A DNA stretch of 45,922 nucleotides from positions 1 through 45,922 of the forward strand of contig CALXDD010000021.1 of assembly GCA_944386985.1 (NCBI GenBank), read 5' to 3'. Shown here one piece after another: positions 5,001 to 26,200 of this stretch; the stretch's first letter is position 1; the number at the start of each line of letters is the position of its first letter. The notes under the pieces are model-generated. The model did no database searches. It worked only from the letters and a program-made list of their open reading frames with translations, and had not been told where the DNA came from. The stretch is from an uncultured Oscillospiraceae bacterium. GTDB lineage: Bacteria; Bacillota; Clostridia; Oscillospirales; Oscillospiraceae. The position numbers were made by a program, and so were the translations under genes.

Positions 5001-5134
5001 TAGGCCCGGCGCACCGTCAGAAACTCCTCCGGATGTTCCTCCGGGTTATACCGGGCCGCCGCCGCGGCGTAGGCCCGGCGGATGGCGCTGAGATCCCGGG
5101 TGGGCGCAAGGCCCAAAATATCCCAAATGTTCAC
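2006..5134 (-). CDS. Very large J-domain-like co-chaperone of the adjacent Hsp70
   Basis: A 1,042-residue protein whose first 55 residues read as a J domain: 'MNIWDILGLAPTRDLSAIRRAY', then 'RYNPEEHPEEFLTVRRAYEQA'. The invariant HPD tripeptide that stimulates Hsp70 ATPase is replaced by NPE in the loop, so activity is likely altered or highly partner-specific. A proline/glutamate-rich linker (about 57-100) follows, then roughly 900 residues with no membrane segment and no domain I recognise; parts are rich in aromatic residues and look alpha-helical. The ATG overlaps the stop of the upstream Hsp70 gene (ATGA), so the two proteins are made together, as in E. coli hscC with djlC. It is far longer than ordinary J proteins (about 100-480 residues). 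The C-terminal part may be the client-binding or scaffold module (inference). Confidence 0.75.
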   Translation of the reverse strand: MNIWDILGLAPTRDLSAIRRAYAAAAARYNPEEHPEEFLTVRRAYEQAAAYARGQEQPADSPEAPAPQPQFPEESPLREDSTGAGGFTLSEESEPERPFASPALERFGELYCSKQRRDRRQWDLWFTSPEFLAVFHDPRFTEALRRAVDEAGQELPPPKEFQTALAVAYRFRAVVYQDHTEFALEEGAGFEGLDDILRIAILGPLVRKLQGNDIVLSAAYQDYDALCDLIREGVWDQPALERLQKILNRYSSAHIKEKCSGNVQGERSAVSLRLLEAFFSCQALPEDAYEVLWNTFDLNSAVMGRAKIFYGRLREIAMEKAPEVCGQRERFVELRTAYSNMGGDVKVAGGEDSPQGRALVDQFMAREDFRRAIQNRLFVRDQVLSYWCSWFSNPYFLQNLSAIYQADPTLPYAQDVVGTIRQALLQREAELAARQERERLAGLALEEISPACCTLSHPLFLRYFLQTAFYWAEDQGQESLYALLDQEFPSNAVWNQRLAQAGLSRSIPLTQYGTDENGQSIERTLEIQLFFHQFYVEYRLDGQALWNPPLPFWGLSQLEDDEVFLLLLPILSAYQDEFEDAAAHLRERLARIGLPDSLIPRTAAALAGEAACLVSAEGGTAILRPARFYREAEGEMYCCAWYGNGRLLTFRRTEENLLLCKEFCRDNVASPDQAQRIAGEIFAEVFSPARSLTELSTGLCSHLHVDRSGMPSQDFEGDDITPALLEQLFQEFEKKWVTRLVVNHDLVLLWSRHSFVTASVPGTCALLRFQDASQSWNALLSDWESYCYVQSDEISQVPFRMGFLPDYAVHRTPKKAIDALVAILNGIHNGNARWSDKVYRNNKDAYYYFVKRTLGGFSVEEVGGPLLRRRYVLPAPPCRFAYREAGEALSTREVDAAARLALGDQLVRFEMGALEYLSLSWELEDLGAVHLVLLHEQADTGRRDLAILIQDGSKSIDYLVGDQREYIHTEKKVHKAEFGGCMIPRYLIHYDFARIRDFLDLFFLSVPRLEPLLHNNFSALAFGPSSLTKLGFEEHRRRLLEP

Positions 5135-6870
5135 AGCATATCCTCCTCATCCTCGATGTACGGCTCTCCCCAGATATCCCGCTGGGCCCAGGCTTCCAGA
5201 TCCTCCAGATGCCGGCGCAGGCGCTCCCGCTCCTGGGCCAGCCGGATGGGGCTTCCGGATTGAAGGGCCTGGGTCAGGCACTGGATAATGCCTGCAGCCT
5301 CCTCCCTCCGCCTGTCGGACAGCTGGGCAAACAGCCGCTCCGCTCTGGAGAGGAGCAGCAGATCCTCCTCCTGGGGCAGAGATTGGTCCGGAAGGGCGTT
5401 CAGCCGCTCCAGCGCCCGGGCGATCTCCTCCTCCGACCAGTTGAGCCGGGGGTTGAGGATGACGGTGCGCCTGCGGTCCCCTCCGCTGCTCTCTGCGGTG
5501 ACCTCCAAAATCCCGTTGATATCATAGGCAAAGGTGACCGCCGCCGATTGCTTTCCCGCCTCGTCCGGCGGGACCGAGACGGACAGCTCACCCAGGAGGA
5601 GGTTGTCGGCGGCGTAGTAGTTTTCTCCCTGGTAGATGGCCAGGCGAATATGCCGCTGATTGTTGGCGAGGGTAAAGAACCGCTCTGTGCGGCGCGCCGG
5701 GAGAATGCTGCTTCTCTGAATCAGGGTGGCCATGTGGGGGTTGGCGTCCTGGACGTCGTTGCAGGCAGCCACACCCAGGGAGAAGGGGCACACGTCGGTC
5801 ATCACAATGTCCTGAAGACCGGCGGAGCGCTGCTTGATGCCGGCGCACAGCCCCACCCCCAGGGCCACGGTGTGCTCCGGGTGTTTGGCCAGAGTGGGGC
5901 GCTTGGAAAACAGCTCCTCCAGATAGTCCACGAAAACGCTCAGCTGGGAGGAGCCCCCCACCAGCACCACATCGCTGATGGCGGAGATGGGAATGCCGCT
6001 GTCCCGGACTGCCCGGACGATGACCTCCTTGACCTGCCGGAAGATGGGCTGGCAGATGGCCCGCAGCGTCTCCCCATCCAGAGGGACGCTCCGCGTCTCC
6101 CCGTCAATTTGACAGGCCAGGATGCAGCCCCGGTCCCGCATCCGGGAGAGGCCGATTTTTCCCTTTTCCGCCAGAGCCAGCAGCTGCCGCTGCTGCTGAG
6201 GGGCCAGATTCGGCCAGGAAAGGCCGGTCTGGTCGCAGAAGTAAGAAGCAATGGCCCGGTCAATGTCGTTGCCGCCCAGCCGGTTGTTTCCCGCAATGGC
6301 CACGATCTCCACCATGTTTTCAAAGCAGTCCACTACGCTCACGTCCAGCGTGCCGCCGCCGAAGTCCACGACCAGCAGCCGCTGCTCCTGCTGATGTGCG
6401 GCATGGCTGTGATAGAGCGCCGCCGCGGAGGGCTCGTTGATCAGCCGCTTCACCGGAAGCCCCGCCAGCTGAGCCGCCAGCCGGGTGGCGCAGCGCTGGT
6501 TGTCATTGAAATAGGCGGGAACGCTGATAACGGCCTCCTCGATCTCCTCCCCCAGCGCCTCCCGGGCAGTCTGGGCCAGCTTCCGGAGGACAAGTGCAGA
6601 CAGCTCGTGGGGCAGGAAGGTCTTTCCGCCCAGCAGGAATTCCTTTTGCGTGCCCATCCAGGTCTTGAAGGAGGCCGCAGTCTCCCCGGGATGGGTGATG
6701 AGCCGCTCCCTGGCCACGGCGCCCACCGTAACGGCGCCGTCCTCCAGCACGCCCACACAGCTGGGCGTCATGAATTGCCCCCACTCGTTGGGGAGCAGTT
6801 CCGGATGTCCATTTCGATATACACTGACCAGTGAGTTGGTCGTGCCCAGATCAATTCCAATCATTGCCAT
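5131..6870 (-). CDS. hscC: Hsp70-family chaperone, HscC-like (copy 1)
   Basis: A 579-residue Hsp70. The ATPase domain shows the phosphate-1 loop 'GIDLGTTNS' (residues 5-13), 'VVDFGGGTLDVSVVD' (phosphate 2), and 'DVVLVGGSSQL' (adenosine site). The substrate-binding part begins 'TDVCPFSLGVAACND' and includes 'IYQGEN' and 'AYDINGILEVTAES'. The reduced lid and the wording TDVCPFSLGV match E. coli HscC (Hsc62) rather than the housekeeping DnaK, and the C-terminus lacks a DnaK-type tail. HscC proteins are specialised Hsp70s that work only with atypical J proteins. It is the first large gene of a minus-strand operon and overlaps the 1,042-residue J protein by four bases. There is no CIRCE element upstream, so HrcA heat-shock control is not evident. 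The start at 6870 has GGAGA 11 bases upstream; ATG at 6864 is an alternative. Confidence 0.9.
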   Translation of the reverse strand: MAMIGIDLGTTNSLVSVYRNGHPELLPNEWGQFMTPSCVGVLEDGAVTVGAVARERLITHPGETAASFKTWMGTQKEFLLGGKTFLPHELSALVLRKLAQTAREALGEEIEEAVISVPAYFNDNQRCATRLAAQLAGLPVKRLINEPSAAALYHSHAAHQQEQRLLVVDFGGGTLDVSVVDCFENMVEIVAIAGNNRLGGNDIDRAIASYFCDQTGLSWPNLAPQQQRQLLALAEKGKIGLSRMRDRGCILACQIDGETRSVPLDGETLRAICQPIFRQVKEVIVRAVRDSGIPISAISDVVLVGGSSQLSVFVDYLEELFSKRPTLAKHPEHTVALGVGLCAGIKQRSAGLQDIVMTDVCPFSLGVAACNDVQDANPHMATLIQRSSILPARRTERFFTLANNQRHIRLAIYQGENYYAADNLLLGELSVSVPPDEAGKQSAAVTFAYDINGILEVTAESSGGDRRRTVILNPRLNWSEEEIARALERLNALPDQSLPQEEDLLLLSRAERLFAQLSDRRREEAAGIIQCLTQALQSGSPIRLAQERERLRRHLEDLEAWAQRDIWGEPYIEDEEDML

Positions 6871-7722: not shown

Positions 7723-9096
7723 TCAGAGCGTAACGACCGATTCGCAGCAATGGTAATCCGTATCGATATAGTTGGCAATTATGCGGGCTTTGAACTTGCG
7801 GGGGCTGCACATGGCGCCGCCGGACACGCTCAGATCCTCCGGTACCACAAACTTGATGCACTTGACCAGCACCTTCCGGCACGTCGGGAAATTGTGGGCG
7901 GGGATGGTCATGGTTTTCATGCCCCTCCGGTGCTCCGCGCCGTTTTGATCCACCTCGGTGAGGATTGCCGCCAAAGCCACCCGTTTTCCGGGACAGACCT
8001 TTTGAATAGTCACATCCATTTGAATGATCCGGCCCTGGGACTCCAGAGAGACGTCTCCCAGGTCCACCAGAACAGAATCCTTGCATCCCTCCACCGTCAA
8101 ATCCACCGGCTCAGGACACTCTTCCGGGTAGACTACATGGCTGCACTCTACCGACACGACAGGTTTTGGGAAAGTAACGATGTTCCCCTCCCGGTCAGAA
8201 TATGTGATGGACTGATTGACCGGCTTTGTCCCGGACTGTTGGCCTACATGGCGGATAAAAAAGTCCAGCGACGCGCTTTCGCTGGAGGTTACCCCTAACT
8301 GGGCGATATTCCACCGCAGGGATCGGGCGTCCAGCATGACAGCGGAGCCCTTTGCAGGCGGCAAAATGCTGGTAATGATAAAATCCGGGGTGACGACCTC
8401 ATCAATGATCACATCGGTAGCCCCCGGTTTGGAAATGTTGGCGGCCAGCTCCGCAAAGAGCGCCTCCAGGTCCGCCGCATCCGGCGTCACCGCTACATGG
8501 GAAGCATTCGGATCAGTAGCCCAGTCGTTCAACGCATTGACGTCCAGACCGCCGGAGCCAATCAGACCGATGCAGTAAATCACGATCCCTTGGGCTCTGG
8601 CTGCGGCAGCTGCCGGTGCGGGAGGTGCGCCGGCCGTGGTATTGCCGTCCGTGAACATGACGATGACCTTGGCATTGGCCGAGGCTGGATCAAACAGCTG
8701 AGCAGCTTTGGAAAAGGCGTCCGCGTGATTGGTGCTGCCGCTGGCTGTCAAACTGCCCACCGCGCTTTTCAGCGTGTCCACGGAGGTAATCAGTTGCGTG
8801 TCGGCGACGGCGTTATCGGAGAAACTGACAATCCCCATCCGGCTGCCCGAACCGATCTGTCCGTCCTTGCTGCCGTCTGTGGCTTCGTCAATAAGGTCAA
8901 TAAAGGTTTTGGCCCCCAGCTTCAGTTCTGTCAGGGGCGCACCCGCCATACTGCCGGAACGGTCCAGAACCAACACGATATCAGTAGGGTTGGAAATAAT
9001 GTCCGGCGCGGCTGTCAGCGCCAGAGTCACCCGCAAAGAACCGTCACAGTCGATGCGGTCTGTGTTGATCACTTTATTGGAATTTGTAACACCCAT
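7723..9096 (-). CDS. VWA-domain protein with cysteine-rich C-terminal domain, no signal peptide
   Basis: A 457-residue protein. Residues about 38-220 form a von Willebrand factor A domain: the metal-binding DxSxS motif 'VLVLDRSGSMAG', and 'VIVMFTDGNTTAG' for the later metal-site aspartate. After it comes a beta-rich segment ('VIIDEVVTPDFIITSILPP') like the C-terminal regions of other VWA proteins. The last ~140 residues carry about eight cysteines ('CSHVVYPEECPEPV', 'CCESVVTL') and resemble no named domain I can cite. There is no signal peptide or membrane span, so the protein stays inside the cell or, if made in a mother cell, goes onto a spore. It is divergent from a cysteine-rich protein gene across 167 bases. 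A role in assembling a spore surface layer is a guess from this pairing; a metal-dependent adhesion role is the general VWA function. Confidence 0.75.
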   Translation of the reverse strand: MGVTNSNKVINTDRIDCDGSLRVTLALTAAPDIISNPTDIVLVLDRSGSMAGAPLTELKLGAKTFIDLIDEATDGSKDGQIGSGSRMGIVSFSDNAVADTQLITSVDTLKSAVGSLTASGSTNHADAFSKAAQLFDPASANAKVIVMFTDGNTTAGAPPAPAAAAARAQGIVIYCIGLIGSGGLDVNALNDWATDPNASHVAVTPDAADLEALFAELAANISKPGATDVIIDEVVTPDFIITSILPPAKGSAVMLDARSLRWNIAQLGVTSSESASLDFFIRHVGQQSGTKPVNQSITYSDREGNIVTFPKPVVSVECSHVVYPEECPEPVDLTVEGCKDSVLVDLGDVSLESQGRIIQMDVTIQKVCPGKRVALAAILTEVDQNGAEHRRGMKTMTIPAHNFPTCRKVLVKCIKFVVPEDLSVSGGAMCSPRKFKARIIANYIDTDYHCCESVVTL

Positions 9097-19131: not shown

Positions 19132-20511
19132 ATGTCATGGCCATGGAATGAACTGGGACTATCCGGTCCCTCTGATGCGGAGGCGATCAAACACGCCTAC
19201 GCCCAGAGGCTGAAGGAAGTCCATCCGGAGGAGGACCCGGAGAGCTTTCAGCGGCTGCAGCGCGCCTATCAGACTGCCCGGCGGATTGCGCGGATGACCA
19301 AACGGCGGGAACCTGTCCCAGACTGGACTGCGCCGGAGGAGGCGCAGCCCTCTCCAGATGCCGCTGCGCCGGAGGAGACACAGCCCCCTCCAGACGCCGC
19401 TGCGCCGGAGACGCCGGAGGAACCCGACAATGCCCCGCCGGTGTGGGACTTTGATACCTTGCTGTCCCAAGGGGAGCAGGAGACGGACCCGGAGGACGAG
19501 ATCCCGGAGGAGGCCCCATGGGTCCCCCCTGTGTATGAATATGAGGGTCCCCAACGCCGCCCCCGCCGGAGGCTCCGCCTCAGCGATGGAATGAAAAGCG
19601 TTGTCGTGATAGCGATTTTCTTGGCCATCGGCTTTGCTCTGAACTGGTCCAACTGGTTTCCACGCCCCATTGATAAGATTTCTGAGACCCAGGAGTGGCT
19701 GGAACGCACCTTCCACATCGATCTGGTCTCCTCCTCTCACAACAAGGACCGGGAGGAGGATCGTTTCCTCTACTGGCTGAAGGACGACCCGGATGTGTGT
19801 TTTCAGGCCATCTACAGTGAAGATGGGGAGTTTCAGACCAATTACACCAGCGCCATGCTCTATCAGGAACTGAAGTCGTTCTCTCAGGAGTGGCCGGACT
19901 ACCCCCTCTGGTTTGACCGGAAGATGACGGACAGCGTGGGAGAAGGCGCTTCAGGCGGTGCGCCCCCTGCTATGTTCTTCTTCCAGATCCCTCTGGAGGG
20001 CGCGGAAGAATTTCTCAATGCCCTGGGGACCCGGCTGGAACAGCTGGCCGGCTCCTCCGACTGGTACCAGCTTCAGCCGCCGGAATTTCAGATCGCCCTG
20101 CTCCACGGCGAGGCGGCCGTGTACTCCTTCCACTCCTCCAACGGAGAAGTGCCCACTGGGCAGGAGCTGGTGGAATTCTATGAGGAGGAGATGACCGGCG
20201 CTCTGCTGCAGGACCTCCTCTTTCAACAGGATGTGGTTTTGTGGGATTACCCGGACCAGGATAACCTGATCTGGGCCAACACAGGGGCCGGCTGGGTCCA
20301 GGATGACGAGGGCTGGTGGATCTCCTGCCGGGGAACCGGACGGAGCGGGGAGGATTTGACCATGTACTATTTTCTGCGGTCGGACTACACCGCGCTCTAC
20401 TGCATCCCTGGTCAGGTGCTGGAAGATCCTGAAGAGATGATGACCCTCTCTTGTACGGAAACACTTACCATGTCCTGCGGTCAGACGGTGGATATCTACC
20501 GGGTTTTGTAG
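19132..20511 (+). CDS. Membrane-anchored J-domain protein (A), HscC partner type
   Basis: A 459-residue protein. Residues 1-55 form a J domain ('MSWPWNELGL', 'AIKHAYAQRLKEVHPEEDPE') in which HPD is replaced by HPE (31-33). Residues 56-150 are a Pro/Glu/Ala-rich linker with two 12-residue repeats and one 'WDFDTLL' motif (105-111). One membrane span (about 155-172) is preceded by basic 'QRRPRRRLR', so the J domain faces the cytoplasm and the ~285-residue C-terminal domain lies outside (positive-inside rule). E. coli DjlB and DjlC, the HscC partners, are also single-span J proteins. It converges on the DUF1266-J-Hsp70 operon, whose J protein has nearly the same J domain, so both probably serve the HscC encoded at 23528-25258. 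AAGGAGGTGAGG precedes ATG 19132. Confidence 0.8.
   Translation: MSWPWNELGLSGPSDAEAIKHAYAQRLKEVHPEEDPESFQRLQRAYQTARRIARMTKRREPVPDWTAPEEAQPSPDAAAPEETQPPPDAAAPETPEEPDNAPPVWDFDTLLSQGEQETDPEDEIPEEAPWVPPVYEYEGPQRRPRRRLRLSDGMKSVVVIAIFLAIGFALNWSNWFPRPIDKISETQEWLERTFHIDLVSSSHNKDREEDRFLYWLKDDPDVCFQAIYSEDGEFQTNYTSAMLYQELKSFSQEWPDYPLWFDRKMTDSVGEGASGGAPPAMFFFQIPLEGAEEFLNALGTRLEQLAGSSDWYQLQPPEFQIALLHGEAAVYSFHSSNGEVPTGQELVEFYEEEMTGALLQDLLFQQDVVLWDYPDQDNLIWANTGAGWVQDDEGWWISCRGTGRSGEDLTMYYFLRSDYTALYCIPGQVLEDPEEMMTLSCTETLTMSCGQTVDIYRVL
19328..19410 (+). repeat. 36-bp tandem repeat in J-protein linker
   Basis: Two copies of a 36-bp unit (19328-19363, 19364-19399) and an 11-base partial third. The copies differ at a few positions and encode repeated 'APEE(A/T)QPxPDAA' segments of the disordered linker. 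The repeat keeps the frame, so its copy number could vary without breaking the protein. Confidence 0.8.
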
Positions 20512-20535: not shown

Positions 20536-20580
20536 AAAAAGACCGCCGGCTCGCCTTCGTGCGAGCCGGCGGTCTTTTTT
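20536..20580. terminator. Bidirectional terminator between convergent chaperone genes
   Basis: An 18-bp stem (A5-GACCGCCGGCTCG type, 20536-20553 with about 20561-20579) flanked by A- and T-runs, so it works in both directions. It ends J protein A (plus) and the DUF1266 gene (minus), and its T-run reaches the latter's stop codon. Confidence 0.9.
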
Positions 20581-21776
20581 TACTTTGTCTCGTTCAGGTC
20601 CAGATTCCACGGCAGAGAAAACGGGCCGTCCGGCCGTTTTTTCAGGCTCCAATAGCTGTCTACACGATCCCGGATGATCTCTCCGCTCTCCTGTGCCTCT
20701 CCATCCTGCTCCACACGGAAGTTGGCGAAATACTCTAAAAAGTTCGTGCTCAGCTCATCCCAGGAGCTGAAGTGGGACTGGATCAGCTTGCCCACCTCAC
20801 GGCTCCGCTGCACCAGCTCTTCCCGGCTGGCCCATCCCAACACCATGGCCATGCCCAGCAAAGAGCTGGAACGGCACAGCTGCCAGGCCCGGGCGGTTTG
20901 GGTATTGCAGTTGGTGAAGCCGGGCCCCCGGCTCATATACTCCACCGTCTCCAGCAGCTGCGCATAGCTGGTGATCTCCCAGCTCCCCCGCAGTGTAGAG
21001 CGGATGAGCCAGCGGGTGACGGGCGTCCGGGGCAAGCCGCCAAAGCGGATGGGAATGGGTCTGCGGCTGGGAAAGATGCGGCTGAACCGGGCGATGGACT
21101 GCCCCCATATGGCGTGGGTGCCGGCCAGCCAGCACTCCACATCGCTTTGCGCCCGGTTGCTCTCCCGCACCGGCCACAGCAGCAGACGGACCAGCAGGAT
21201 CAGAAACACCGCCGCTGCCATCAAAGTCAGGCTGCCCAGCCAGGGGAACCACGACCGAAAGTCGGCGTGGGCGATATCCCGCTCCTCGCCCAGCATATCC
21301 GCGTAGTAGTCCAGGGTCGTCAGGTCCAGATCCTTCCACTCCACGCTGGCCCGCTCTGTCTCCGTCAGCTCCCAGGGCGCCCAGCGTCCCACCGGAGAGG
21401 CCCAGAGACCGGTGGCCGTGTTATACTCGTATCCATCCCGGCTGTACCGGGCGGCCACACGCTCCCCGCTCTCCAGAACCAGGATCTTGTAGAGGGTGTT
21501 TTCCTGCCCTAAAAAGAACAAATTGCCCTCCTCCCACGCCTCCGCTTCCTCCACAGTGAAGAGCTCCAGGCGTTCCATGTCCGCTACAGAGCGTGCCCGC
21601 GGTGTGTCCTCCTGCGCCTGGGTACCCACAGCCTCGGGGGCCAACCCCCTCTCCTTGGCGTACCGCCCCCAGACGGACTCCGTCAGCGCCCCCGCTGTCA
21701 CCCGGCATACAATGGCCAGCAGCAACAGCGCCACAACCAGTACCCACCGCAAAATCCGTCCCAGTTCATACTTCAT
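20580..21776 (-). CDS. DUF1266-containing membrane protein
   Basis: A 398-residue protein with an N-terminal signal-anchor span (about 9-28), a ~150-residue mostly polar domain, a second span (about 179-201), and a cytoplasmic C-terminal domain. Residues about 252-352 fit DUF1266: 'GSWEITSYAQLLETVEYM', a mid-helix region, and 'IQSHFSSWDELSTNFLEYF'. DUF1266 includes E. coli YbeR and YbeU, which lie beside hscC and djlB/djlC. Finding the same domain here directly after a J protein and an HscC-type Hsp70 is strong context for a shared system. The gene is third in the operon, 27 bases after the J protein, with GGAGAGGAAG upstream of ATG 21776. DUF1266 function is unknown. Confidence 0.75.
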   Translation of the reverse strand: MKYELGRILRWVLVVALLLLAIVCRVTAGALTESVWGRYAKERGLAPEAVGTQAQEDTPRARSVADMERLELFTVEEAEAWEEGNLFFLGQENTLYKILVLESGERVAARYSRDGYEYNTATGLWASPVGRWAPWELTETERASVEWKDLDLTTLDYYADMLGEERDIAHADFRSWFPWLGSLTLMAAAVFLILLVRLLLWPVRESNRAQSDVECWLAGTHAIWGQSIARFSRIFPSRRPIPIRFGGLPRTPVTRWLIRSTLRGSWEITSYAQLLETVEYMSRGPGFTNCNTQTARAWQLCRSSSLLGMAMVLGWASREELVQRSREVGKLIQSHFSSWDELSTNFLEYFANFRVEQDGEAQESGEIIRDRVDSYWSLKKRPDGPFSLPWNLDLNETK

Positions 21777-21803
21777 TGCAATTTTTTCTTCCTCTCCTCC
21801 ATA

Positions 21804-23528
21804 TCAATGACGCACAACATCCCACAGCAGCAAATCCGCATGAGAACTCCTTTCCGCAGCAGACTCAAAGTGGTCTGAATAGATAAAATCTATATACGCA
21901 AAGCCATCCATATTGGGGTCAAAGCTCTCCGCAGGCGTGCTGATCAGGTACATCCCATCATAGAAATACAGGCGATCCGTCTCGCCGGTAGTCTCATTCA
22001 CCCCGCCGATCTGGATAAAGTCGTCTGTGTAAATGGTGATTACGCCTAAATGCACCAATTGATAGGGGGTATCCCCAAAATCCGCCTGTCCAAGGCCGCT
22101 CTCCTCCAGCAGATAGCGGATCAGGGCAGGCCGGGCCTGGGTCTGATAGCTGTCCGCCATGGCCGCGGCGTCAAAAGATTCCTCCGGGGCGGTATAGGTG
22201 TAGTAGGGACAATCTCTGATCTCCAGCTGCAGCTGATAGGCGGGAGCAAGCAGCTTGTACCAGGTCTCCTGGCTTAGGGAATCCAAGCGGCTGCTCAGGT
22301 CTTTTGCAGCCTCCGCCCCATCCCACATATCGAAAGAAATCCTGTAGCAAGGAGGCGTATCGCCGCTCTCCTCGCTCTGCGTCTTCAGTTCACACACATC
22401 CTCCCACTCCTCGGCAAAGCCCTCCAGTTCTCTGGCTACCAGGGCGCCGGCCAGGTCGGTCGTATAGCCCGGCTCTCCCCGGCTCAGATCCCGCTCCCCC
22501 TCCAGCCTTGCCACGAAGTAGCGCTGCTGCACCGGCAGATAGAAATAATTGGGGTTGGAGCTGTTCTCACCGTAGCAGGACTCCGCCGGAAAGCCGAAGT
22601 CCTCCTCGATGTACTGGCAGATGGTCTCCGCCTGCTGCCGGTAGGGCAATTGAGAGAAGTAGTCTCCCAGGTAAAAGCCGGCCAGGAGCAGCAAGATTCC
22701 ATCCACAAGGATCGCCGCCCGGAACAAAAATGGGTGCCGCTGACGAAAGCGCCGTCTCCGGGTGGTCCAGGTCTGTGCCGCCTGGCCGCTGACGGCGCTG
22801 TAAAACGCCCGGTGCTTTTTGGGCTCCTTTCCCGCCCGGAAACCATAGGCCAGCAGCACATCCTCCCGGATCTTCGGATTGTGCACCGGTCCGGCCCGGA
22901 AAGCCTCCGCCAGTCCGTCCATGAACTGAGGCTCCTCCTTCACCAGGAAAAACAGTCCCGATCGGAGAAAACGCTCCCAATCGCTCCGGGGCCGCTGCTC
23001 CTCAAAGAGCAGACGGACCAGCTGCAGAGCCCGTGCCACAGCCCCGCCCTGTTCGCCGCCGTACTGCCGCCGCTGTTCCTCCGTCCGCCGGCGCTCCTCC
23101 TCCTGAAGAAGGCGCTGAAAATCCCACCGCTCCCGGGACTCCTTTTTCTCACGGGGCTCTTTTGGGGAATCCTCCTGGTCAAGCAGCGCACGGAAGTCCA
23201 GCTTCTGCCTCGGCTCCTCCGGCTTTGCCTGCGGTTTCTCCTCATGCAGCAGCTGCGAGAAATCCAGCTTTGGCGCTTCCTTCCCCGGCTCCGGCCGGGA
23301 CGGATGCGGCGTCTCCGGCTCCCCGGTAAAATCCGGCGGTCCCTGTGGTGTCCCCCGCCCCGCCCTTCTGGCCGCCTGACGGGCCGCCTGATAGGCGGTA
23401 TGCAGCCGCTGAAAGCCCTCCGGGTCCTCCTCCGGATGGACCTCCTTCACCCGCCGGGCATAGGCCCGGCGCACCTCGTCCAGAGAGGCAGGGCCGTCCA
23501 GCCCCAGTTCGCTCCATGGCCAACTCAT
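21804..23528 (-). CDS. Membrane-anchored J-domain protein (B), HscC partner type
   Basis: A 574-residue protein. The J domain (1-55; 'MSWPWSELGLDG', 'VRRAYARRVKEVHPEEDPE') has HPE (31-33) in place of HPD and is almost identical to that of protein A. The linker (56-160) holds three spaced copies of a [LW]DFxxLLxxE motif: 'KLDFSQLLHEE' (about 87), 'KLDFRALLDQE' (about 109) and 'RWDFQRLLQEE' (about 134). After a helical segment (160-250) and a very basic 'RRRRFRQRH' comes one membrane span (about 267-287), then a ~287-residue outer domain similar in layout to protein A's. The ATG overlaps the Hsp70 stop by one base (TAATG), tying expression to HscC copy 2. Confidence 0.85.
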   Translation of the reverse strand: MSWPWSELGLDGPASLDEVRRAYARRVKEVHPEEDPEGFQRLHTAYQAARQAARRAGRGTPQGPPDFTGEPETPHPSRPEPGKEAPKLDFSQLLHEEKPQAKPEEPRQKLDFRALLDQEDSPKEPREKKESRERWDFQRLLQEEERRRTEEQRRQYGGEQGGAVARALQLVRLLFEEQRPRSDWERFLRSGLFFLVKEEPQFMDGLAEAFRAGPVHNPKIREDVLLAYGFRAGKEPKKHRAFYSAVSGQAAQTWTTRRRRFRQRHPFLFRAAILVDGILLLLAGFYLGDYFSQLPYRQQAETICQYIEEDFGFPAESCYGENSSNPNYFYLPVQQRYFVARLEGERDLSRGEPGYTTDLAGALVARELEGFAEEWEDVCELKTQSEESGDTPPCYRISFDMWDGAEAAKDLSSRLDSLSQETWYKLLAPAYQLQLEIRDCPYYTYTAPEESFDAAAMADSYQTQARPALIRYLLEESGLGQADFGDTPYQLVHLGVITIYTDDFIQIGGVNETTGETDRLYFYDGMYLISTPAESFDPNMDGFAYIDFIYSDHFESAAERSSHADLLLWDVVRH

Positions 23529-25258
23529 TAAAAGTCCTCCTGATCCCCGGGGTCAGGGAAAAAGTCGTCCAGGGTATCCTGTCCCAGGTAAGCCTCCACG
23601 CTGTCCAAAAACTTCTCCATCCTTCGGGACGCCTTGGCCACCCGGATGGGCTCCTGAAGAGACAGCTCGTGCTGATACCAGGCCAGCATCCGATCCACCT
23701 GCTCCCGCACATCCCCCACCGTCATGGCGTACATCCGCTCCGCCTTGGCAATCAGAGCCCGGGGGACCTCCTGGTCCCGGGGGTGGAGCTTGAGAGCCGA
23801 CAGTTCCTGAAGCCGCCGCTCCACCTCCCTTTGTGTCATCTCCTTGTTCTGCAGCACCAGCCGGGCCGGTTTGCCGCTGCGGCTGACCGCCTCCACCTCT
23901 AAAAGACCGTTGATATCGTAAGTAAAGCGCACCCGCACCGGCTCCTGCCCCCGGGGCGCCGATGGTACGGTGACCTCCAGCTCCCCCAGCAGGGTGTTGT
24001 CCTCACAGTAGGGATTCTCCCCCTGATAAATCTTCAGATCGATTCTGGTCTGCCCGTCCCGCACTGTGGAGTAGATCCCCTCCTTACTGGTGGGCAGCAC
24101 GCTGTTGCGCTCGATGAGGGGCGACATCCGGTCCCGCCTGGGCTCCGCCTCGTTGTAGGTGGCCACTCCCAGAGTAAAGGGACACACGTCGGTGAGCACC
24201 AGCTCCCGCAGGTCGGCGGCCCGGGCCTTCATGCCCGCGCAAATTCCCGCCCCCAGGGCGATGGCTGTGTCCGGCCGGCTGTCGGAGGCGGGCTCCCGGC
24301 CCAGGAGCTGGGCGATGTACTGCCGCACTGACGGCATATGGCTGGAGCCGCCCACCATCACCAGTTCATCCAGCTCTTCCACGCGGATGGACGCATCCCG
24401 AAACACTTTCTGGACCGGGGCGGCCATGCGCTGGAAGAGGCGGCTGCATTTCCGGATCAGCCACTCGTTGTTCATGGGCAGGGACGCCCGGATGGTGCCG
24501 TCGTCCACGCTCATGACCACCATGGGCTGGACGGTCAGCGCCATCTTGCAGGTCTCCGCCTGGCGGATCAGCATCTCCTGCCGCCTGGAGTCCAAGCGGT
24601 CGAAGTCGATACCGGTCTCCTCACAAAAGCCCCTGGCAATGGCCCGGTCAAAGTCGGAGCCCCCCAACCGGTTATCTCCGCTCACCGCCGTGACGCTGAC
24701 CACGTTTTCAAAGCGCTCCACCAGAGACACATCCAAAGTACCGCCCCCCAGGTCAAAGACCAGGCAGACCTTGTCCTCGTCCCCCTCGCTGATGTGGGCG
24801 GACACCGCGGCGGCAGAGGGCTCGTTCACCAGACGCTCCACCGTCAGCCCCGCCAGGGCGCCCGCCCGCTTGGTGGCGGAGCGCTGTGCCTCGGCGAAGT
24901 AGGCGGGAACACTGATCACCGCCTCAGTGACCGGCTCACCGAGATAGCACTCCGCATCCTCCTTCAGGCGGCGGAGCACCAGGGCAGACAGCTCCTCGGG
25001 CCGAAAGCTGCGGTCCCCCAGCTGAAAGACCTTCTGGGTACCCATATATCGCTTGAAGCGGGCGGCGGTCCGCTCCGGGTGGGAGATCAGGCGGTCCTTG
25101 GCCGCCTGCCCCACCAGGACGCTGCCGTCCTCATCCACGCTCACTACGCTGGGGGTCAGGTAGTCCCCGCCTGCGTTTGGGATCAATTCGCTGCGGCCAT
25201 TGCGCCAGACCGCGGCCAAGCTGTTCGTCGTACCAAGATCAATTCCCAGAATTGCCAT
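23528..25258 (-). CDS. hscC: Hsp70-family chaperone HscC (copy 2)
   Basis: A 576-residue Hsp70 with 'GIDLGTTNSLAAVWRNGRSE' at the N-terminus, 'FDLGGGTLDVSLVE', 'ELVMVGGSSHMPSV', then 'LTDVCPFTLGVATYNEAE', 'IYQGENPYCEDNTLLGELEV', 'TYDINGLLEVEA' and 'LSALKLHPRD'. As I recall E. coli HscC, these segments match it closely (there 'LTDICPYSLGV' and 'LSALKIYPRD'), more so than copy 1 does. HscC works with DjlB/DjlC and is not a general folding chaperone. Start set at ATG 25258 because GAGAGGAGA lies just upstream; an earlier in-frame start at 25300 would add 14 residues with no ribosome binding site. Followed by J protein B and the DUF1266 protein. Confidence 0.92.
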   Translation of the reverse strand: MAILGIDLGTTNSLAAVWRNGRSELIPNAGGDYLTPSVVSVDEDGSVLVGQAAKDRLISHPERTAARFKRYMGTQKVFQLGDRSFRPEELSALVLRRLKEDAECYLGEPVTEAVISVPAYFAEAQRSATKRAGALAGLTVERLVNEPSAAAVSAHISEGDEDKVCLVFDLGGGTLDVSLVERFENVVSVTAVSGDNRLGGSDFDRAIARGFCEETGIDFDRLDSRRQEMLIRQAETCKMALTVQPMVVMSVDDGTIRASLPMNNEWLIRKCSRLFQRMAAPVQKVFRDASIRVEELDELVMVGGSSHMPSVRQYIAQLLGREPASDSRPDTAIALGAGICAGMKARAADLRELVLTDVCPFTLGVATYNEAEPRRDRMSPLIERNSVLPTSKEGIYSTVRDGQTRIDLKIYQGENPYCEDNTLLGELEVTVPSAPRGQEPVRVRFTYDINGLLEVEAVSRSGKPARLVLQNKEMTQREVERRLQELSALKLHPRDQEVPRALIAKAERMYAMTVGDVREQVDRMLAWYQHELSLQEPIRVAKASRRMEKFLDSVEAYLGQDTLDDFFPDPGDQEDF

Positions 25259-25398
25259 ATGTGTCTCCTCTCTGCCAGAGTGGTCTGCTGTGATTTTCAA
25301 TTCTGCATTGTATCATAGATTCCCTGAGAATTCCATATGCACTGTTGGAAGACAAATGGGAGTGCGGAACGATCTCCGGGCCGGATCACGACAGAACA

Positions 25399-25570: not shown

Positions 25571-26086
25571 TCATCCGCCGATTTTCCGGATCGTCTTTCC
25601 GGTCCGTTCCTCCAAAAAGCATCGGAACTCCTCCACCGTGCCGCCCTCCAGTCCCGCCTTGTCAAATGCCTGGGCATGGTTTTTCCCCAGAATGACCACA
25701 AGATAGTCCCCGCTCTCCACCAGAGCCAGGATCCTGCTGTACTGCCACTGGGAGGTGAGGCCGGTAATCCGGGACTCGTAGCAGTCCCGGTGGAACACCG
25801 TGGCGCACTCCTCCATGCCCGGCATGGCCCGCCGCTTGCTGATGATGGCGGACAGCGTGTCCTCCCCGAACTGGACCGCCAGCAGCATGACGATTACCCC
25901 GGCATCTACCCCGCGTACCCACAGGCTCTGTTGTCCGTCCAGTACAGACAGCAAGCAGGCGGCAATGATGATCCAGGAAAACACCCTGGTTAAGATGCTG
26001 ACCCCTCTCCGGGTGGTCTTTCGGATGGCTTTTGACATGGCTGCCAGCGCCCTCCGGGTGTATACAGTTCTGCAGGAAAATTCCAT
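25571..26086 (-). CDS. YcxB-like membrane protein
   Basis: A 171-residue protein with a short N-terminal polar segment ('MEFSCRTVYTRRALAAMSK'), two adjacent membrane spans (about 35-50 and 55-75), and a C-terminal soluble domain with 'VFHRDCYESRI', 'LVESGDYLVVILGKNHAQAFDKAGLEGGTVEEF' and 'LEERTGKTI'. This order, and the 'DKAGLEGGT.EEF..FLEERTGK' ending, fit the YcxB-like family of Firmicutes membrane proteins, whose role is unknown. Start at ATG 26086, chosen for AAGGAGC 8 bases upstream; a longer frame to 26143 lacks a ribosome binding site. It lies between the bil operon and hscC on the same strand, separated from both by hairpins, so it is probably a single-gene unit. Confidence 0.7.
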   Translation of the reverse strand: MEFSCRTVYTRRALAAMSKAIRKTTRRGVSILTRVFSWIIIAACLLSVLDGQQSLWVRGVDAGVIVMLLAVQFGEDTLSAIISKRRAMPGMEECATVFHRDCYESRITGLTSQWQYSRILALVESGDYLVVILGKNHAQAFDKAGLEGGTVEEFRCFLEERTGKTIRKIGG

Positions 26087-26200
26087 AACGGCTGCTCCTT
26101 CTCTTTGGTATGGAACCAGTATAGCAAGCCGCTCCCGACGCATTCAATCTAAGATTCCTTAAGCTGCCTTAAAGTTTCGAAAGGCTCCCGGACGGAATCC

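Follow-up and report, generated by a model that had tools for sequence, protein, structure and literature searches.

The DNA considered here (the window) is a stretch of 45,922 nucleotides from an uncultured Oscillospiraceae bacterium (Bacillota; contig CALXDD010000021.1), in which the genes for an HscC-type Hsp70 (hscC1), a J protein (J1) and a membrane protein with a DUF1266 domain are neighbors, all on the minus strand. They form an apparent operon, and comparisons between genomes suggest that DUF1266 belongs with the J protein more than with the Hsp70. The locus contains the following features:

23528..25258, minus strand: hscC1, HscC-type Hsp70 of 576 amino acids (ATG at 25258; TTG at 25300 is an alternative opening of the frame)
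21804..23528, minus strand: J1, J protein of 574 amino acids, with a TAATG overlap with hscC1
20580..21776, minus strand: DUF1266 membrane protein of 398 amino acids, 27 bases past J1
20536..20579: terminator-like hairpin of 19 pairs with flanking A and T runs, separating the DUF1266 gene from J2
19132..20511, plus strand: J2, a J1 paralog of 459 amino acids with an HPE J domain, convergent with the DUF1266 gene

The hairpin is a match to a consensus only and was called on the plus strand. Three consecutive genes with a second membrane J protein (J2, one predicted span) converging on them had been reported in a preliminary description of the window, and this arrangement holds.

The product of hscC1 matches the Pfam HSP70 profile with 414 bits and is 39% identical to E. 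coli HscC. In a tree of 18 HscC rows and eight others, it sits, together with the product of a second such gene of the window (hscC2), in a clade with E. coli HscC (support 100/100), split from E. coli DnaK, E. coli HscA and the DnaK of the window genome itself. HscC proteins are described as having 550–580 residues, no GrpE signature (DnaK 290–295), a deletion at DnaK 76–101 and an insert in loop L1,2 of the substrate-binding domain (PMC8215388). The hscC1 product, with 576 residues, has these traits (gaps and insert seen by eye in the alignment). The deletion near 76–101 is present also in the window genome's own DnaK and is not diagnostic of HscC.

In place of the HPD of DnaJ, J1 and J2 carry HPE and J3 (the J protein beside hscC2) carries NPE, followed by a DPxxF-like stretch, as in DjlB and DjlC of E. 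coli. The Pfam J-domain scores in the hscC1 locus (21.9 and 22.6 bits) are under the Pfam cut-off, and J3 has a DnaJ match of 21 bits. In an AlphaFold2 model of J1 (predicted local distance difference test, pLDDT, 79.5), the N-terminus matches J domains in the PDB. This J domain is followed by a disordered linker (60–135), a helical part, a single hydrophobic span (from about 265) and a well-predicted domain. In J2, the single hydrophobic span starts at about 148. Both proteins extend some 280 residues past the span and are predicted to be membrane-anchored; because arginines and positive charges precede the span of J1, the domain beyond it is probably outside. Span prediction over the 1042 residues of J3 found no hydrophobic span.

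The product of 20580–21776 matches PF06889 with 48.8 bits (gathering cut-off 27), which confirms the DUF1266 assignment made earlier. The HMMER alignment covers only positions 80–175 of the profile (1–175); the front part of the domain aligns by eye, with about 40 residues absent. The domain occupies about 252–390, behind two hydrophobic spans, which start at about 3 and 175 and enclose a loop of about 145 residues. The structure model contains long helices at 2–32 and 162–206 and a confident helical core at about 260–350. Positive charges are found on the sides of the spans that, in this topology, would face the cytosol, and the DUF1266 domain is then probably cytosolic. Full-length relatives (39% over 400 residues, spans at 13–14 and 183) are found at two loci, L075 and L078, that are near-copies of each other. 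Candidatus Anaerotruncus excrementipullorum (L040) shares the arrangement of all four genes, with J2 again converging, and has identities to the window of 82% for HscC, 43% for J1, 45% for J2 and 58% over 167 residues for DUF1266; it differs in that the DUF1266 frame is broken in its assembly. There (L040:12390-13041), the N-terminal hydrophobic stretch and the DUF1266 domain are in separate frames, by gene decay or an assembly fault.

The HscC/DjlB/DjlC system of E. coli is already known. As in the window, its Hsp70 belongs to the HscC clade, the J domains carry HPE and DPxGF, and a DUF1266 gene lies beside each J gene: two DUF1266–J gene pairs (ybeR-djlB and ybeU-djlC), with 4-base overlaps, are found beside hscC. 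In one published listing, ybeU-djlC is a single unit (PMC6469107). DjlB and DjlC are described as membrane-anchored J proteins (PMC8215388), with an HPE that is the one tolerated change from HPD (PMC13254874). HscC gives E. coli resistance to cadmium and UV by a mechanism described as unknown (PMC8215388); it binds sigma-70, and its overproduction reduces sigma-70-dependent promoter activity (PMC3861889). In open-licence papers, we found no link of DUF1266 to HscC/DjlB/DjlC and, in the passages that mention DUF1266, no functional lead for it. There are differences between the two systems. In E. coli, the DUF1266 gene precedes the J gene and hscC runs in the opposite direction, whereas the order in the window is HscC-J-DUF1266. 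YbeR and YbeU have about 235 residues and no obvious membrane span (by eye), against two predicted spans in the window protein, and J1 and J2 are further set apart by their stretch of some 280 residues past the span. The gene set thus occurs in both Bacillota and Gammaproteobacteria, so that the recurrence of the three families in a distant phylum, as first proposed, is borne out; the window adds a new form to it, in which DUF1266 is part of a membrane protein and the J proteins continue past the membrane. Of general interest is the pairing of J and DUF1266.

A genome collection was scanned with an HscC-specific segment and the best 80 of at least 579 confirmed loci were used; these are the nearest to the window and mostly from Bacillota, not a random sample. 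An HscC-type J gene adjoins HscC in 78 of the 80 (of the two exceptions, L099 ends at a contig edge and L117 has a weak J match about 590 bases off). Read by pattern in these 78 loci, the J motif is HPE in 58 and another triplet in 17, and was not read in three. A DUF1266 gene adjoins the J gene in six of the 80 (L040, L075, L078, L090, L100 and L118). In a sample of 348 Bacillota genomes, DUF1266 occurs in 12, HscC (at least 130 bits) in eight, and both in six (Fisher p 1e-8, with kinship not corrected and three of the six shared genomes from one family). Four of the six have the order HscC-J-DUF1266 and one has a J-DUF1266 fusion behind HscC; in the sixth (G478), HscC and a J-DUF1266 pair are separated by about 3.6 Mb on the contig.

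Loci of the Paenibacillus family (L100, L118, L120 and many of L151–L199) mostly have the same order and strand as the window, with short gaps or overlaps and an HPE J domain; in L193 and L197, unlike the window, HscC comes after DUF1266. Other differences are TPR repeats in all three J proteins scanned (L118, L123 and L183), DUF1266 proteins that are mostly of about 205–250 residues without membrane spans, and up to five pairs in one genome. Within the family of Paenibacillus fonticola, 177 genomes were used for a positional comparison of J and DUF1266 genes. The DUF1266 genes number 71, spread over 38 genomes, after one split match had been merged; HscC-type J genes number at least 66, in 40 genomes, a lower bound since at most 36 candidates per genome were scored. 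Directly downstream of an HscC-type J gene, on the same strand, are 59 of the 71 DUF1266 genes, and 59 of the 66 scored J genes are paired in this way. By genome, both occur in 34, DUF1266 only in four, J only in six and neither in 133 (Fisher p 8e-26, kinship not corrected). HscC is in the same locus and on the same strand in 41 of the 59 pairs and not in 18; at least one HscC-J-DUF1266 trio is present in 30 of the 34 genomes with a pair. All 37 Hsp70 genes in the fetched family loci carry the HscC signature TD[IV]CPxxLG.

By these comparisons, DUF1266 appears more closely linked with the J protein than with HscC, because J-DUF1266 pairs occur alone, as a fusion, in tandem and with matched trees. 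P. fonticola has five DUF1266 genes, each behind a J gene and only one of them beside HscC. In L183, a tandem J-DUF1266-J-DUF1266 array lies behind one HscC. Directly behind HscC in L121 (genome G339, Bacillota) is a fusion protein of 672 residues with a J domain (9–50), TPR repeats and DUF1266 (504–663). Over the 59 pairs, distances between full-length J proteins follow those between DUF1266 proteins with r 0.892, against a maximum of 0.790 in 2000 trials in which pairs were shuffled within the 16 multi-pair genomes; with the J domain alone, r is 0.505 and the re-pairing maximum 0.463. Re-pairing keeps the species background, so that the result supports specific pairs and not merely common descent of the genomes. 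The higher r for full-length J proteins would place the contact in the rest of the J protein, with the reserve that the 60 residues of the J domain carry less signal. The preliminary description had proposed a tie of DUF1266 to HscC; the closer tie appears to be that to the J protein.

We therefore regard it as rather probable that hscC1, J1 and the DUF1266 gene form an operon encoding an Hsp70 machine at the membrane, in which the DUF1266 domain would serve the J protein as a dedicated partner on the cytosolic side and HscC would be a shared engine. Paired inheritance and the fusion make a dedicated subunit or regulator of the J protein the most likely role for DUF1266. By homology with DjlC in E. 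coli, the J domain (HPE) would trigger ATP hydrolysis by HscC. DUF1266 would dock on the J protein, or form one subunit with it, and decide which client, or when, passes to HscC, either by selecting clients or by controlling the J protein. J-DUF1266 pairs would then be exchangeable client modules on the shared HscC (two in E. coli K-12, five in P. fonticola). Because J1 and the DUF1266 protein look membrane-bound with parts outside, the window version may couple the state of the envelope to HscC on the inner side of the membrane. A stronger form, in which DUF1266 is an obligate J partner, J-DUF1266 pairs are client-selecting modules on one HscC in up to five copies per genome, and the Oscillospiraceae pair has become a two-protein transmembrane sensor that signals the state of the envelope to HscC on the inner side, is possible and, in our judgment, doubtful.

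Several observations weigh against the J-partner reading. One is a second pair in the window itself, 16.7 kb from the hscC1 locus and with no DUF1266 gene adjoining:

5131..6870, minus strand: hscC2, second HscC-type Hsp70, 579 amino acids
2006..5134, minus strand: J3, J protein of 1042 amino acids with an NPE motif, in 4-base overlap with hscC2

DUF1266 is likewise absent from 74 of the 80 nearest HscC-J loci. As most HscC-J loci, including this pair, are without it, DUF1266 is dispensable for HscC. In the order of the window (147 genomes sampled), DUF1266 occurs in 11 and HscC (near-full-length matches, identity at least 45%) in four, and the window genome is the only one with both; three other HscC-J pairs have no DUF1266. 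In Gammaproteobacteria (203 genomes), DUF1266 occurs in only one of the five genomes with HscC. The P. fonticola family includes 12 DUF1266 genes without a J gene and seven J genes without DUF1266, and four of its 34 genomes with a pair have no trio (G724, G748, G837 and G853). Of these four, G724 does hold HscC, as its DUF1266 coordinates are identical to those of G478, which has HscC at a distant site. The model of the window DUF1266 protein is weak overall (pLDDT 61.9), and the topology of both this protein and J1 is predicted. A tree was built from 76 DUF1266 domains. Those linked to J are found in three separate places (the group of the window, Gammaproteobacteria, and Paenibacillus kin), and a single clade for them is neither rejected nor shown (approximately unbiased test, p 0.062); the labels need three changes, against a shuffled mean of 22. 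The window protein and its counterparts in L040, L075 and L078 make up a small group that has diverged, so that applying the evidence from Paenibacillus kin to it relies on homology. Proteins of this group have membrane spans, unlike the paired ones of P. fonticola kin, and pairing is therefore read there from gene order in those four loci only. The module of the preliminary description thus recurs unevenly: the trio is frequent in the P. fonticola family, DUF1266 is not a regular component of the HscC loci nearest to the window, and in the window's own order co-occurrence comes down to one of the four HscC genomes and one of the 11 DUF1266 genomes. Neither outcome that the preliminary description had named as refuting it (no DUF1266 profile match, or families co-occurring in no more than a few genomes) was obtained outright, and its interpretation is partly supported overall.

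For the second pair, the closest relatives compared are in Lawsonibacter L108 (55% for HscC; 30% over 1075 residues for J). A vWA-domain protein (7723–9096; Pfam VWA 81 bits) is encoded upstream of hscC2 and a protein of 190 residues (25571–26143), which matches YcxB below the threshold (19.2 bits), upstream of hscC1, each on the strand of its Hsp70 gene.

The DUF1266 family as a whole is broader, and many of its members lack a J or HscC neighbor. E. coli K-12 itself has a third DUF1266 protein, YnjI (ynjI, b1762; PMC10044804). Around 10 other DUF1266 genes in the order of the window, no HscC or J gene was found within up to about 9 kb per side, several stretches being shortened by contig ends. 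No HscC-type J gene was found beside DUF1266 in the stretches fetched from the other six DUF1266 genomes of the phylum sample (G352, G456, G469, G287, G292 and G481), nor any J gene in the 10–15 kb around nine fetched unpaired DUF1266 genes of the P. fonticola family. In that family, a hydrophobic span is present in none of the 52 fetched J-paired DUF1266 proteins and in seven of the nine unpaired ones, mostly near the N-terminus. DUF1266 proteins of 357–693 residues with a hydrophobic N-terminus (L126 and L128–L131; several spans in L130), with no J or HscC neighbor in the fetched stretch, apparently represent a branch that is exported or sits in the membrane. A separate Hsp70-J set was seen by eye in other Bacillota loci (L038 and L134–L139), with an Hsp70 of 550–650 residues and, close to it, a J protein with the motif PPE or PPD (APE in L135); several have extra small genes between or before the two. 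The C-terminal sequence of the L038 J protein is CPCGSGKKYKKCC.

The main rival is a narrower partner reading, in which DUF1266 is a small helical modulator that attaches to the J domain and either prevents or adjusts the contact of this domain with HscC. The precedent is CbpM, a small partner encoded after the J gene of CbpA, which binds the J domain and inhibits it. The layout is the same, a J gene followed by a dedicated small helical protein (CbpA itself, however, serves DnaK), each DUF1266 is paired with one J gene, and the confident core of the DUF1266 model (about 260–350) is helical. The CbpA J domain–CbpM complex (3ucs, known here by its title only) is among the structure matches of the J1 J domain; no sequence or fold link between CbpM and DUF1266 was found, with no CbpM among the matches listed for the low-confidence DUF1266 model. 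What speaks against this reading is that distances between DUF1266 proteins follow those of the full-length J protein much more closely than those of the J domain. We consider such a modulator rather unlikely. The preliminary description had left DUF1266 as either client or partner, and these are not equally likely, the fusion and the paired duplications favoring a partner. As a client, DUF1266 would need HscC and J to fold or change state, as IscU depends on HscA and HscB. Dedicated clients are often co-encoded with their chaperone, and a protein with two predicted spans, like that of the window, may need help in folding. A client role is nevertheless improbable in view of the J-DUF1266 fusion, the 18 pairs without HscC in the locus, the lack of a span in all 52 fetched paired proteins of the P. 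fonticola family, the HscC-J pairs without DUF1266, which are the majority, and the DUF1266 genes with neither HscC nor J nearby. Shared gene travel (horizontal block transfer, island genes) without joint function would suit the patchy and sometimes duplicated occurrence of HscC (8/348) and DUF1266 (12/348) in Bacillota and is very improbable, since pairs scattered over one genome remain matched, genes overlap or are fused, and the same pairing is found in Bacillota and Gammaproteobacteria.

The dedicated partnership of DUF1266 with the J protein thus remains the preferred reading. A firm J-DUF1266 link would give a testable handle on both HscC and DUF1266. It predicts joint action of YbeR and YbeU with DjlB and DjlC, in a standard laboratory strain of E. 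coli. If true, one bacterial Hsp70 would serve a set of paired adaptor modules.

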